Positions 6,671 to 11,206 of a stretch of 21,781 bases of DNA are shown piece after piece. Below the pieces are notes generated by a model. That model was not told the DNA's origin, did not search any database, and saw only the letters and a list, made by a program, of their open reading frames with translations. Numbering within the stretch: position 1 is the first letter of the stretch; each line of letters opens with the position of its first letter. Location of the stretch: positions 1-21,781 of IMG/VR virus record IMGVR_UViG_3300008266_000563, one strand, 5' to 3'. Origin of the DNA: a virus. Position numbers and translations under genes: made by a program.

Positions 6671-6888
6671 TACAAGTAGGCTTACTTACTATTGAACAAA
6701 AAGATCAACTTATTGGGCAGTTATATGCTCCAGATAGTTACTTTAATCCAATTCAGGATATTGAAGATAACTGGGTTATAAGTCAAGAAGAAATGAATGA
6801 ATGCATAAATGAAAGATGTTTATGGGTAAAAGAATTGCCTCTCATTCCATATCTACCTAAACCAGATCCAATTTTAGAATCACTATGA
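6667..6888 (+). CDS. Small conserved tail-cluster protein
   Basis: A 73-aa soluble protein with IQVGLLTIEQKDQL, then FNPIQDIEDNWVISQEEM and CLWVKELPLIPYLPK. The pattern is familiar as a companion gene of the preceding tail protein in Bacteroidota phages. Small coupled genes after fibre genes are often assembly chaperones, but no direct evidence for that exists here. It overlaps its neighbours on both sides by 4 nt (ATGA), linking the tail cluster to the lysis module. Confidence 0.7.
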   Translation: MIQVGLLTIEQKDQLIGQLYAPDSYFNPIQDIEDNWVISQEEMNECINERCLWVKELPLIPYLPKPDPILESL

Positions 6889-7385
6889 TAAAGAACTTAA
6901 ATATCAGTACTTCTACAATCTTGCAAGTTGTCTTGATAGGTATATGTCTTATCTTGATGCTTAGAAAACCTATTCAGGTTTACCCGGTAAGTAAGCAGAA
7001 GACTATTGAAAAGAGAATAGAAGGTAAAGAAACTGTTATAAGAGAGAAAGGTCAAGTGATAGATAACAGCAAAAAGATTATTGCTAAACTAAATGCTGGA
7101 CTACTTGATCTACACTCTCAGTTAGATTCTGTTAAGAATGCTAGAGATACTTTTAACATTATTCAGATACAGGATACTATGATCCACGTGCTCTACCGTA
7201 GAGACAAAGAAAAAGATCTGATAATAAAAAACCAAGACACAGTTATTCAGGCACAGAGATATATTATTAATAGCCAGGATACAATTATTACAGCACAAGC
7301 ATTTGATATTAAGAAATTAAAGAAACAGAGAAACATATCTGTAATTCTAAATGCATTATTGACAACAGGTTTAATTATTAAATAA
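6885..7385 (+). CDS. Spanin-like membrane coiled-coil protein
   Basis: A 166-aa protein with an N-terminal membrane segment (about residues 11-27, followed by RKP) and a long coiled coil (38-148). A second hydrophobic stretch lies at the extreme C-terminus (151-165). Three QDT-I repeats (IQDTMI, NQDTVI, SQDTII) sit in the second half. One N-terminal anchor plus a periplasmic coiled coil is the layout of Rz-type inner-membrane spanins, and the neighbours include holin-like and endolysin genes. No partner lipoprotein with a lipobox was found, and the C-terminal hydrophobic tail could make it a one-gene spanin or simply a two-anchor protein. Lysis role is inferred from topology and position. Confidence 0.6.
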   Translation: MIKNLNISTSTILQVVLIGICLILMLRKPIQVYPVSKQKTIEKRIEGKETVIREKGQVIDNSKKIIAKLNAGLLDLHSQLDSVKNARDTFNIIQIQDTMIHVLYRRDKEKDLIIKNQDTVIQAQRYIINSQDTIITAQAFDIKKLKKQRNISVILNALLTTGLIIK

Positions 7386-7645
7386 TGGAATTAGCACAAT
7401 TAGTACAGTGGGGATTAGTAGCAGTAACAGGAGTTCTTGGTTACTTTTTAAGAATGATCCATACGGATGTAAGAAATAATACAGAAAGTTTAGGTAAGCT
7501 TAAAGGCAAGATTGAACTTGTAGAACAAGAGTCAAGATTAAAATATCAGGCAATTCAAGAACAGACTCAGTTAGAAATTAAAAGTCTAGCTAGAAGTGTT
7601 TCTGAACTATCTGATGCAGTTAAACAACTAATATTACAAAGATGA
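7385..7645 (+). CDS. Membrane-anchored coiled-coil protein, XhlA/holin-like topology
   Basis: An 86-aa protein with one membrane helix at residues 5-23 (VQWGLVAVTGVLGYFLRMIH) and then a coiled coil to the end (28-86). The size and build recall XhlA-type lysis accessory proteins, although in XhlA the helix is C-terminal. Its start overlaps the previous stop by 1 nt (TAATG), and its stop overlaps the next ATG (ATGA). The membrane helix and lysis-module position favour a role in membrane permeabilisation or in scaffolding membrane partners. The specific function is unknown. Confidence 0.65.
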   Translation: MELAQLVQWGLVAVTGVLGYFLRMIHTDVRNNTESLGKLKGKIELVEQESRLKYQAIQEQTQLEIKSLARSVSELSDAVKQLILQR

Positions 7646-8160
7646 GATATATTATTGATCCGCTTCACTCAGATGTAGCATTTAGAATTAAGCATTTGAT
7701 GATCTCAAATGTTAATGGAATATTTGGTAAGTTTGATGCTACTATGGAATCTGAGTCTGAAGACTTTGAAGGTGCTAAGATATGGTTTCAAGCAGAAGTA
7801 AATACCATTTCAACAAACATTACAGATAGAGATAATCATTTAAAAGGAGAAGACTTTTTTGATGCTGATAACTTTCCTTATATAACTTTTGAGTCTTCTA
7901 AGGTAGAAAAGATAAATGATGAGTATACAGTTATTGGAGAGTTAACAATTAAAGGTGTGTCAAGAGAAGTAACTCTAAAAGGTAACTACAATGGTAATGA
8001 TGTTGATGCTTATGGTCAAACTAAGTATGGATTTGAACTTGATGGATCTATAAACAGAAAAGACTGGGGTTTAACATTTAACTTAGAAGGTGGTAAAGGA
8101 TCTTTGTTGATTGGTGATGAAGTAAAACTTATGATCAATATTCAAATGATGAAGGCATGA
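7642..8160 (+). CDS. YceI-family lipocalin-like protein
   Basis: A 172-aa protein covering a full YceI domain. It starts YIIDPLHSDVAFRIKHLMISNVNGIFGKF, matching the family opening DxxHSxVxFxIxHLxxSxVxGxF. Residues 56-84 carry SIxT-like text with DRDNHLKGEDFFDADNFPYITF. Residues 101-113 read LTIKGVSREVTLK, and residues 137-151 INRKDWGLTFNLEGG. YceI proteins form an extended beta-barrel that binds polyisoprenoid or other lipids; many are periplasmic, but this one has no signal peptide and would stay cytoplasmic. It is coupled by ATGA to the histidine kinase downstream and to a membrane protein upstream. Its role in a phage is unknown; sequestering or sensing a polyprenyl lipid is a guess. Confidence 0.9.
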   Translation: MRYIIDPLHSDVAFRIKHLMISNVNGIFGKFDATMESESEDFEGAKIWFQAEVNTISTNITDRDNHLKGEDFFDADNFPYITFESSKVEKINDEYTVIGELTIKGVSREVTLKGNYNGNDVDAYGQTKYGFELDGSINRKDWGLTFNLEGGKGSLLIGDEVKLMINIQMMKA

Positions 8161-9041
8161 CCCTATCTTTTAAAAGTAAAGCAGCATTAATAATTGCTGG
8201 TATTTGCATGCTAGTATTTTTTGTTGTTAAAACTTTTACATTATTTGGTATATTTCTTCAGTGTAAGTATACTAACCTAATTGAGTATTTTTGTTTTATT
8301 GTATTTTGTCCTCCTGCTTTCTGGTTTGTTAAAGACTTCTTAAAAGAAAAAGAACAATTGCACCAGTTAACAGTAGATCAGCTACAATATAAAAATACAT
8401 ATCTTGAACATGCTGCTAAGATTCTTAGACATGATATGCATTCTGGAATCAATGTATACATACCTAGAGGAATTAGTTCATTAGAAAGAAGATTACCACT
8501 AGAAATTATAGAGCAGTATAATTTAGCATCACCTTTAAAGTTGCTTAAAGATGGTCTTTTACATACTCAAAAAGTATATAAAGGAGTTTATGAATTTACA
8601 AACTTAGTAAAGCAGGGTAGTTCATTAGAGTTTAAAGAGGTTAAGTTAGATGATTGCTTAAAAAAATATTTAGAGACTACTTCATATAAAGACCAAGTTA
8701 TCATTGATGTTTTACCAAGTGCAAAGATCAATGAATCTTTATTTTGTACAGCTGTAGATAATTTGATCAGAAATGGGCTTAGATATAATGACTCTGAAAA
8801 TAAACTAGTAATTGTATATATGTTGGATAATCATACTTTGATTGTGCAAGATAATGGTAGAGGTTTATCTAATGAAGAATTAATAGAATACTCAAGGCAA
8901 AACAAAAGAAGAGAAAACCAAAAAGAATCAGGTAGTGGTCTTGGTCTTGGCATTTGTGTAGCCATAATAAAAGAACATAATTTTGAGGTTACTTCTGAAA
9001 AAATAGCTCAGGGTACACAAATAAAAATTAAAATAAAATGA
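8157..9041 (+). CDS. Membrane sensor histidine kinase
   Basis: A 294-aa protein with two membrane helices (about 10-33 and 41-58) joined by a very short loop, so there is essentially no extracytoplasmic sensor domain. A linker coil (59-85) leads to an H-box, LRHDMHSG, with candidate phospho-accepting His92. The ATPase domain has an N-box NLIRNGLRYND (Asn202/Asn206), G1 DNGRG (232-236) and G2 GSGLGLG (259-265), all intact. It should autophosphorylate and pass phosphate to the receiver protein encoded immediately downstream with a 4-nt overlap. The lack of a sensor domain suggests detection of membrane state or of a partner membrane protein. Histidine kinases are unusual in phages. Confidence 0.88.
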   Translation: MTLSFKSKAALIIAGICMLVFFVVKTFTLFGIFLQCKYTNLIEYFCFIVFCPPAFWFVKDFLKEKEQLHQLTVDQLQYKNTYLEHAAKILRHDMHSGINVYIPRGISSLERRLPLEIIEQYNLASPLKLLKDGLLHTQKVYKGVYEFTNLVKQGSSLEFKEVKLDDCLKKYLETTSYKDQVIIDVLPSAKINESLFCTAVDNLIRNGLRYNDSENKLVIVYMLDNHTLIVQDNGRGLSNEELIEYSRQNKRRENQKESGSGLGLGICVAIIKEHNFEVTSEKIAQGTQIKIKIK

Positions 9042-9475
9042 TTAACTCAATAATGCTAATAGATGATGAAAATCTTTTTCATCTTGTTTTTGAAGATGCA
9101 TGCAGTCTTTTAGATATATCACTTTCATTTGAAGCTTTGTCTTCATCAGATGAAGCAGATAAGCTTTTTAAGCAATGGTTTCCTGATGATCCAAATAAAG
9201 AAAAACCTGATTGTGTATTTGTAGATCTTAACATTATAGGTTCATCTTTTGATGGGATAGAAATGATCAGAAAGATTAATCATGATTATGGTAATGGTTG
9301 TGTAATAGGTATTATATCTTCATCTTCTGATATTCAAGAAATTGATAAAGCTAAAGCTGTGGGTGCTCAATTCTGGATTATTAAATCTGATGAGATTGAA
9401 CCTAGACTAGAAGAGTTTAAAAAAGATTATGAAGGGTATAGAACTAAATCTTTACCTTTCAAAGTTTATAAGTAA
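9038..9475 (+). CDS. Single-domain response regulator (CheY-like)
   Basis: A 145-aa protein consisting only of a receiver domain. The acidic pair Asp9-Asp10 (LIDDE), phospho-acceptor Asp63 (VFVDLNI), the Ser95 region (GIISSSSD) and Lys116 (WIIKSD) are all in the expected places, so it should be phosphorylatable. There is no DNA-binding or enzymatic output domain, so it must act by protein-protein contact, as CheY or Spo0F do. The kinase gene overlaps it by 4 nt, and the coiled-coil membrane protein gene starts 1 nt inside its stop codon, which makes that protein the obvious candidate target. A short C-terminal tail (131-145) extends beyond the receiver fold. Confidence 0.9.
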   Translation: MINSIMLIDDENLFHLVFEDACSLLDISLSFEALSSSDEADKLFKQWFPDDPNKEKPDCVFVDLNIIGSSFDGIEMIRKINHDYGNGCVIGIISSSSDIQEIDKAKAVGAQFWIIKSDEIEPRLEEFKKDYEGYRTKSLPFKVYK

Positions 9476-10044
9476 TGGTACTACCAAAAGCAGTTAGAGA
9501 CGGGTTATTAAAGATAGCTAAAGAGAAGAAACTCTTCTTAGAAGGAAATCTTCTTAAGATAATAGAACCTGGAACAGATGATCCTGCTTTTGCTGAGTAT
9601 CTAAAAATTTGTAAAGAAAGAGATATATCATCAAGAAAAAAAAGATTAGAAGTAACTAAACAAGTACAGTCTCAGAATACAGCTCTTGCTCATGCAATGG
9701 GTGAGAAAGAAACTCTTATGCTAAATCTTCAACATGCTCTTGAACAAGCTGAAGATGCTAAGAAAGAAGCTGAACAATTAAGAGATGCTGCAATGGATGA
9801 TTTAGATCTTTTGCAAAAAAGAACACAGTTTGAACTCATTAATATAATTGTTAAAGTAGCTTTAGTAATTATAATTAGTGTAGGCATAGTAGTAAGTATT
9901 ATGTATTTATTTGCTATATTATATGGAAGAGAGACTCAAATTATAGGTTCTACATGGAGTAACCTTTTGGGTATATTACTAACTAATGCATTCTCTATAG
10001 TAGGAACTATTATGGGGGTTAAGTATGCAACAGATAAACATTAA
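9475..10044 (+). CDS. Coiled-coil protein with two C-terminal membrane helices
   Basis: A 189-aa protein. Residues 1-30 are a basic, helical N-terminus, residues 50-115 form an Ala/Glu/Lys-rich coiled coil, and membrane helices lie at about 121-149 and 161-184, ending in a short cytoplasmic tail. The section DLDLLQKRTQFELINIIVKVAL through GSTWSNLLGILLTNAFSIVGTIMGVKY looks like a conserved phage membrane module I have seen in other marine or environmental phages, with no firm function. With two helices and a large cytoplasmic coiled coil, it could be a regulated holin, antiholin or anchoring platform. It is translationally coupled (TAATG) to the response regulator, suggesting it is the output of that signalling pair. 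The function is inferred. Confidence 0.7.
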   Translation: MVLPKAVRDGLLKIAKEKKLFLEGNLLKIIEPGTDDPAFAEYLKICKERDISSRKKRLEVTKQVQSQNTALAHAMGEKETLMLNLQHALEQAEDAKKEAEQLRDAAMDDLDLLQKRTQFELINIIVKVALVIIISVGIVVSIMYLFAILYGRETQIIGSTWSNLLGILLTNAFSIVGTIMGVKYATDKH

Positions 10045-10046
10045 GT

Positions 10047-10268
10047 ATGAGATTTTTAAAAGAAATATTTACAGATGAATCAGGAAGTTATTCATCTAAA
10101 AGGGTAGCCGGTCTACTTTGTACATTAGCACTAATTGCTGCACTGATTATGAATACAACTACTCATGGAGATATTAAACCATCAGATAGACTAGTTGATG
10201 CAGTAGCATTGTTAGCATTTGGTGCATTAGGTTTAACATCCATTGATAAATGGTCTAAAAAGAAATAA
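10047..10268 (+). CDS. Holin-like protein
   Basis: A 73-aa protein with a short N-terminus containing DESGSYSSKRV, two membrane helices (about 17-36 and 48-66) separated by a polar turn with KPSDRLVD, and a Lys-rich C-terminus (WSKKK). Small size, two helices and a positively charged tail are typical of class II holins, and the endolysin gene follows 1 nt after its stop. It would let endolysin reach peptidoglycan at the end of infection. The holin assignment rests on topology and position, since holins have little conserved sequence. Confidence 0.75.
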   Translation: MRFLKEIFTDESGSYSSKRVAGLLCTLALIAALIMNTTTHGDIKPSDRLVDAVALLAFGALGLTSIDKWSKKK

Positions 10269-10269
10269 T

Positions 10270-10734
10270 ATGCAATTAAGTAAACACTTTGAACTTGCTG
10301 AGTTTACAAGAAGTAGCACAGCCAAAAGAGCAGGAATAAGTAATACACCAACTGAAGCACATCAGGCAAATATGGTGTTGTTATGTGAAAAAGTATTAGA
10401 ACCAATTAGAGAACATTTTGGTAGAGCAATCTTTTTAAGTTCTGGTTATAGAAGTGCGGCTCTTAATAAGATTACTAAAGGAGCATCAACAACATCTCAA
10501 CATTGTTCAGGTGAAGCTGTAGATATTGATATGGATGGTACTGAAGTAACTAACAAACAAATCTTTGATTACATTAAAGCTAACTTAGAGTTTGATCAAC
10601 TTATCTGGGAGTTTGGTACAGATACTAATCCAGACTGGGTACATGTATCTTATGAGTCTACTGGCAGACAAAGAAAAGAAATTCTTAAAGCTAGAAAATC
10701 AGGTAATAGAACTACCTATGTTCCATTTAAATAA
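10270..10734 (+). CDS. Endolysin, peptidase M15 family
   Basis: A 154-aa protein from ATG 10270. An upstream in-frame TTG at 10243 lies inside the holin gene and is rejected. Residues 5-13 (KHFELAEFT) and 56-66 (FLSSGYRSAALN) are typical of M15A peptidases. The zinc motif HxxGxAxD is exact: His78, Gly81, Ala83, Asp85. The final ligand is His125 in WVH, with catalytic Glu114 in LIWEF. It should cut D-Ala-containing peptide cross-links in peptidoglycan to lyse the host. There is no signal sequence, so it would depend on the holin-like protein for export. This is the most confidently assigned gene of the lysis module. Confidence 0.92.
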   Translation: MQLSKHFELAEFTRSSTAKRAGISNTPTEAHQANMVLLCEKVLEPIREHFGRAIFLSSGYRSAALNKITKGASTTSQHCSGEAVDIDMDGTEVTNKQIFDYIKANLEFDQLIWEFGTDTNPDWVHVSYESTGRQRKEILKARKSGNRTTYVPFK

Positions 10735-11156: not shown

Positions 11157-11175
11157 TATTACTTAAACTACTATG

Positions 11176-11206
11176 ATCCAGGTACTTTCTGTGCCTGGAT
11201 TTTTTA
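11176..11206 (+). terminator. Strong intrinsic terminator
   Basis: A 10-bp stem pairs 11176-11185 (ATCCAGGTAC) with 11191-11200 (GTGCCTGGAT), with one G-T wobble, around a 5-nt loop (TTTCT), followed by T5-A-T3. It ends the lysis operon before the packaging/head operon. Confidence 0.9.

Follow-up and report, generated by a model that had tools for sequence, protein, structure and literature searches.

Lysis timing in phages is classically a matter of the holin allele, antiholins and superinfection. What purpose could a complete kinase-receiver pair then serve immediately upstream of the lysis genes of a phage? The question is raised by the window analysed here, that is, the whole of a 21.8-kb virus record, which carries a crAss-like terminase and portal (the terminase being at most about 26% identical to those of named phages). 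The first-pass annotation had described three open reading frames at 8157-10044, and these were borne out exactly as claimed: a histidine kinase of 294 amino acids (HK, 8157..9041), a stand-alone receiver of 145 amino acids (RR, 9038..9475) and a protein of 189 amino acids (CC, 9475..10044) in which alignment and model give a coiled coil and a two-helix membrane hairpin, all on the + strand like every other window feature given below. HK overlaps the preceding gene by 4 nt and RR by another 4, and RR overlaps CC by 1 nt. Directly after CC, in the order claimed, come a small holin-like gene (10047..10268; 73 amino acids, two hydrophobic stretches, ‘SSKR’ family) and an M15 peptidase endolysin (10270..10734; 154 amino acids) recognised both as Peptidase_M15_3 (E 2.4e-17) and as phrog_894 endolysin (E 1.7e-38). 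Since no HMM matched the former, we infer its putative holin function from its size, its two hydrophobic stretches and its neighbourhood; its homologues adjoin endolysins in the relative L049 and in two of the one-component loci discussed below, L119 and L122.

On the upstream side lie a putative spanin-like protein (6885..7385), with an N-terminal membrane helix (hydrophobic stretch 5-33) and a long helical region, for which Pfam/PHROG-type family searches gave nothing informative, then a further gene at 7385 and a YceI-domain protein (7642..8160; PF04264, E 6.8e-44) with no obvious signal peptide. The YceI gene occupies the same slot, at 86% identity, in three other contigs (L005, L007 and L013), and is an optional accessory of the cassette. 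In other phages this slot is often taken by a membrane protein of about 62 amino acids with a conserved CPSKW-like motif (L018:6542-6742, L022:1152-1400 and many others), which by eye resembles YgaP-TM (DUF2892), the L022 copy having no Pfam match. Downstream of the cassette and the lysis genes, a terminator-like hairpin stands at 11175..11201, by consensus match only; sites so recognised numbered 13 in the scan, against 3.4 expected.

Does this pair have what a working phosphorelay needs? HK matches HATPase_c above the Pfam cut-off (E 4.5e-12) and has an H-box, LRHDMHSGIN, with His92 at codon 8430-8432, along with the N, G1 and G2 boxes. There being no Pfam HisKA match, the H-box was assigned by how conserved it is and where it lies, and His92, Asn202, Asn206, Asp232, Gly234/236 and Gly259/261/263 are invariant across 31 relatives. 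RR likewise matches Response_reg above the cut-off (E 8.4e-8), and its acidic pocket (Asp9, Asp10), its phosphoacceptor Asp63 (codon 9224-9226), Ser94 and Lys116 (codon 9383-9385) do not vary among relatives. The named catalytic residues of both proteins are thus invariant across 31-39 diverse relatives, and the kinase boxes and the Asp63/Lys116 pair are as intact as had been proposed. The pairing is a dedicated one, as RR and HK are absent jointly where they are absent. Both the Pfam search and the predicted fold agree that RR is a receiver only, without output domain. That fold is CheY-like (pLDDT 83) with a short extra C-terminal strand, and Rcp1 and RcpA are among its closest structures; Rcp1/RcpA and CheY share with it the fold and a C-terminal extension, but RR is only about 15-19% identical to receivers of this type, and its partner, unlike theirs, is a phage-encoded coiled coil in the membrane that belongs to no known family. 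The PHROG histidine kinases phrog_857, phrog_10912 and phrog_20778 share the HATPase_c region with HK; the similarity (E 6e-12 to 1e-9) does not extend beyond the catalytic C-terminal part.

As to sensing, HK of the window has a strong hydrophobic stretch at 2-37 and, on visual inspection, a second and weaker one at about 42-61; the two leave no space for a periplasmic domain, in agreement with the claim that the kinase has no extracytoplasmic sensor. Besides this bare two-helix form, the HKs of relatives come with one PAS domain (PAS_3/PAS_9), with GAF plus PAS (728 and 649 amino acids) or with a second, TPR-repeat kinase, all of them paired with a single RR and a single CC. Tandem kinases before a single RR and CC are seen in some large phages (L115, L141, L207, L220, L224, L229, L232 and L260); in L260 the N-terminal half of the second kinase contains TPR repeats. 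In L233 (about 634-1704, in kinase orientation) a divergent kinase that shares the H-box (RHDMHSGINTYIPRG) stands alone, with no RR or CC nearby.

CC is the least familiar member. Hydrophobic stretches at about 116-152 and at 164-182 (the hairpin is encoded at about 9838-10029) fit its earlier description as a coiled coil with two membrane helices, and its most conserved stretch is the second of these helices, WSNxxGILLTN[A/S]FSI[V/I]GTIMGVK. It has no significant family in Pfam, NCBIfam or PADLOC and no holin or antiholin family match in Pfam, PHROGs or NCBIfam; comparison with the PDB, by sequence and fold, returned nothing beyond coiled-coil noise, and BFVD holds one relative, the uncharacterised phage protein A0A6J5PRT3. 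A role in anti-phage defence was considered and rejected, as HK, RR, CC and the PAS-CC fusions described below are without any PADLOC match. In 12 loci (cluster c13), RR and CC are separated by an extra protein of about 165 amino acids (e.g., L018:~8438-8935 and L051:537-1040), in which membrane helices and, at the C-terminus, a coiled coil can be made out by eye.

The three genes are found together in other phages too, as a receiver scan of 2.9 million viral contigs (IMG/VR) shows. Among the best 80 of the 524 confirmed RR relatives, HK lies upstream and CC downstream in essentially all, whilst the other neighbours differ. Independent pattern scans, starting from the second membrane helix of CC and from the kinase H-box, left this picture unchanged: RR precedes CC in 102/108 loci with room for it, and HK is followed by RR in 102/103, some contigs being redundant in both counts. 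In 50 whole contigs of 12-321 kb, CC is present in all 50 and RR in 47, the three without RR all being PAS-CC fusion records from which HK is absent too; where RR and CC occur, a record has a single copy of each, alongside one or two kinases. Compared in pairs, RR sequences are on average 82.5% identical, HK sequences 62% and CC sequences 59%, and the median pN/pS values (0.17, 0.36 and 0.40, respectively) indicate strong purifying selection, so that chance open reading frames or pseudogenes can be rejected. HK-RR-CC is a fixed cassette, present in hundreds of IMG/VR contigs from phages that are otherwise unrelated.

The earlier statement that such pairs are rare in phages holds for named phages, none of 50,697 having a cassette match at E 1e-5, but not for uncultured ones, in which the cassette is common. 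Nor does it look like a host operon captured once: a pattern scan of 84,980 GTDB genomes (with patterns from the window's own RR, which distant relatives would escape) gave a single match, and this one, L087 (CAJQGZ010000002.1), is a phage-type contig inside a 2.1-Mb genome bin, with terminase-like and PhoH-like open reading frames by eye. No further CC was found in the other 244 genomes searched of the phylum of that bin. Together with the absence from named phages, this led us to reject the capture explanation. The window cassette itself is of mosaic make-up. The part that begins with yceI (about 7640) and runs into RR (about 9200-9400) is closest to L013, a phage contig of 64 kb that differs elsewhere and carries a GH19 endolysin, whereas its CC, its holin-like gene and the remainder match the crAss-like relative L011, which suggests that the HK/RR and CC of different phages are interchangeable.

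Is the position next to the lysis genes equally general? Few other cassettes have the window's type of holin and endolysin nearby, and for this reason the linkage was at one point suspected to be a quirk of the crAss-like window, an idea dropped once other endolysin families were recognised. Five families (Amidase_2, M15_3, GH19, Phage_holin_4_1 and phrog_3000) were searched over the 50 whole contigs at any position. A lysis gene lies within 2.5 kb of the cassette in 29 of the 39 contigs that gave a match, where random placement would lead one to expect 6.6 (P 1.6e-16, threshold count, Poisson-binomial under a uniform placement null that ignores relatedness), and the excess is still seen in contigs of 100 kb or more (5/11 vs 0.85 expected, P 7e-4). 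Physical linkage to holin/endolysin genes thus exceeds chance, and the lack of co-conservation with lysis genes in related phages, which the first-pass annotation had named as something that would refute it, was not what the survey showed. A Fisher combination of the per-contig distances was dominated, for Amidase_2, by far cases (P 0.23), and the threshold count was preferred to it for that reason. Since the choice of families was partly guided by genes near cassettes, a PHROG tally was added as an unbiased check, comparing 110 genes within three of the cassette with 110 genes at least five away, in 45 non-redundant loci: the leading families of the near genes are mostly endolysins or a holin, and those of the far genes comprise structural proteins, nucleases and ribonucleotide reductases. 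Cassettes have endolysins of at least four unrelated families as neighbours, and those next to M15, GH19, amidase or phrog_3000 genes turn up on deep branches throughout the cassette tree (positions being phylogenetically non-independent), so the pairing with lysis genes seems to recur. The phrog_3000 proteins, whose members also match phrog_33083 endolysin, are possibly an unrecognised family of phage lysis enzymes; about 200 amino acids long (e.g., L062:5686-6303), they recur beside the cassette, and an SAGC motif like that of L,D-transpeptidases can be read in them by eye.

Lysis regions of many phages, however, also gather accessory genes, and the cassette might be one of these, an accessory (moron) unit in a hot-spot where late genes of this kind are tolerated next to the endolysin, with some other membrane function, for instance the exclusion of superinfecting phages or protection of the host membrane. 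The mosaic nature of the remaining neighbouring gene content, and of the window cassette itself, would suit this explanation. So would the 5/29 contigs whose nearest lysis gene is on the strand opposite to the cassette (in the other 24/29 the two run the same way), and one clade (G006, G010 and G018) in which the cassette sits beside capsid-type or other genes. Further exceptions count against a role in lysis: the recognised lysis gene is more than 2.5 kb off in 10/39 contigs, and another 11/50 whole contigs have no match to any of the five families searched, three of these (G013, G019 and G022) having genes for a small membrane protein and a protein of the DUF5675 type next door. Yet a tolerant hot-spot does not readily account for association with one functional class through at least four endolysin families and across deep branches, nor for the tight one-component operons, where a fusion protein lies between holin-like and endolysin genes with overlapping reading frames. 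We hold the accessory-gene explanation to be fairly unlikely.

Those one-component operons are informative in another way. In five loci (L119, L122, L149, L150 and L156) HK and RR are absent, and one PAS-CC protein of 245 amino acids is found instead; the loci represent about three lineages, as L119, L149 and L156 are closely related. The PAS domain of the fusion (TIGR00229, E 1.2e-14) is 40% identical to that of the L054 HK, and its CC part corresponds to residues 59-188 of CC at 52% identity, the N-terminal segment being missing. Three of the fusion records (G035, G041 and G042) were searched whole and have no RR or HK match elsewhere, although these three may be incomplete. In 4/5 fusion loci a holin-like gene is directly upstream and an endolysin directly downstream (GH19 in L119, L149 and L156, M15 in L122). 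In the three GH19 cases the reading frame of the fusion overlaps, on its upstream side, that of a holin-like gene of the SSKR family (the L119 copy being 39% identical to that of the window), and the endolysin follows with a 4-nt overlap. In the fifth locus (L150/G042) GH19 is 139 nt and a Phage_holin_4_1 gene 765 nt away. L153 has a lone short CC without HK or RR, then an endolysin-like open reading frame (phrog_9589, E 1.5e-4).

As phages without RR fuse a sensor domain straight to the coiled coil and hairpin of CC, CC seems to be the end of the pathway, which supports the part of the first-pass interpretation that took a membrane protein as the output. The segment missing from the fusions, the N-terminal 58-67 or so amino acids of CC (9475-9675), in whose place PAS stands, is accordingly the proposed site of RR action. 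The same loci bear on the possibility that RR is a decoy or phosphate sink aimed at the host, either at its two-component signalling or at another of its proteins, with CC as a membrane tether only. RR is indeed the most conserved part of the cassette (82.5% over 61 sequences, against the lower values of HK and CC), over most of its surface and including the C-terminal tail, and this could mean an additional, possibly host, target. But a dedicated HK is nearly always present, and phages that lack RR have lost HK and the CC N-terminal segment as well whilst keeping the membrane hairpin, so that CC rather than RR stands at the end of the path; a decoy function is highly improbable.

Could CC be itself of the holin class, a pore gated by the receiver or by PAS? 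This would be a sub-case of the proposed lysis switch, providing a second, signal-controlled trigger in place of a regulator that acts on another holin. The two-helix hairpin is the most conserved part of CC, with invariant polar Thr/Asn/Ser in helix 2, and PAS-CC has a holin-like gene on one side and an endolysin gene immediately on the other. As a rule, however, a distinct holin-like or Phage_holin_4_1 gene is close by, CC has a long cytoplasmic coiled coil that small holins do not, and it matches no holin family; a pore-forming CC can be entertained only tentatively and seems rather doubtful. The usual presence of a separate holin near the cassette also counts against lysis control in general, as it means that CC need not be a lysis protein.

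Taken as a whole, these results suggest that phages carrying the cassette use a bacterial-style signalling switch that helps to decide the time of lysis. We think it somewhat probable, judging from sequence comparisons, that CC is the membrane effector, that HK/RR or PAS provides its input, and that CC modulates lysis. In such a mechanism, HK, optionally informed by PAS/GAF sensors or by a second kinase with TPR repeats, would autophosphorylate and pass the phosphate to the single-domain RR. RR would then engage the N-terminal segment of CC, changing the state of its coiled coil and very conserved membrane hairpin, and CC might modulate, or add to, membrane permeabilisation by the neighbouring holin, thereby setting or adjusting the timing of lysis. 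The role of lysis regulator first advanced for the window gains from the co-location with several unrelated endolysin and holin families, also in phages of more than 100 kb. Membrane state, the signal proposed along with it, is just one option: relatives carry cytoplasmic PAS/GAF sensors, and a cytoplasmic signal is at least as likely. One might speculate, from the YceI fold family, that the bare kinase of the window and its YceI neighbour are compatible with a lipid- or quinone-related cue.

Two-component wiring to holin-like proteins does exist in bacteria, though via transcription. In staphylococci, the LytSR system controls the holin-like LrgAB/CidAB proteins: LytS responds to changes in membrane potential and LytR induces the expression of lrgA, whose product is antiholin-like (PMC5717393). 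The cassette resembles LytSR in tying a kinase/regulator pair to holin-like membrane proteins and lysis. LytSR, however, is a chromosomal bacterial system that acts through transcription and has no homologous effector, whereas RR of the cassette lacks an output domain, the LytTR DNA-binding output included, and has a membrane coiled-coil protein as its genetic partner, so the comparison extends to how the two work only. Lysis inhibition of the T4 type relies on holin T and the antiholins RI and RIII (PMC11413866, PMC8385771; for ICP1, PMC7182436), with RI in the periplasm and believed to sense superinfecting phage DNA. The likeness to the proposed role of the cassette is in a phage-encoded environmental input acting by protein contacts with the holin; the difference is that no kinase, receiver, PAS domain or phosphorelay takes part. 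A relation to RI or RIII was looked for through family libraries, with no match. In the open-access literature no description of phage-encoded two-component or kinase-based lysis control was found, Flavobacterium phages included.

As a two-component system, then, the cassette belongs to a known kind, though its membrane output is unusual and unannotated, whilst as a means of lysis control it would be new. Whether a phosphorelay or fused PAS domain that switches a new, CC-type family of effectors, gating holin/endolysin lysis by the state of the infected cell, constitutes a widespread class of lysis control is a matter on which we find ourselves evenly divided. The effector family is unannotated in the libraries searched, and thanks to its one-component PAS-CC form the question lends itself to a direct test in a laboratory strain that needs only two or three genes. 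If the interpretation is correct, the sensor-to-effector architecture would be transferable, and many uncultured phages would be measuring the physiology of the cell to decide when to burst it.
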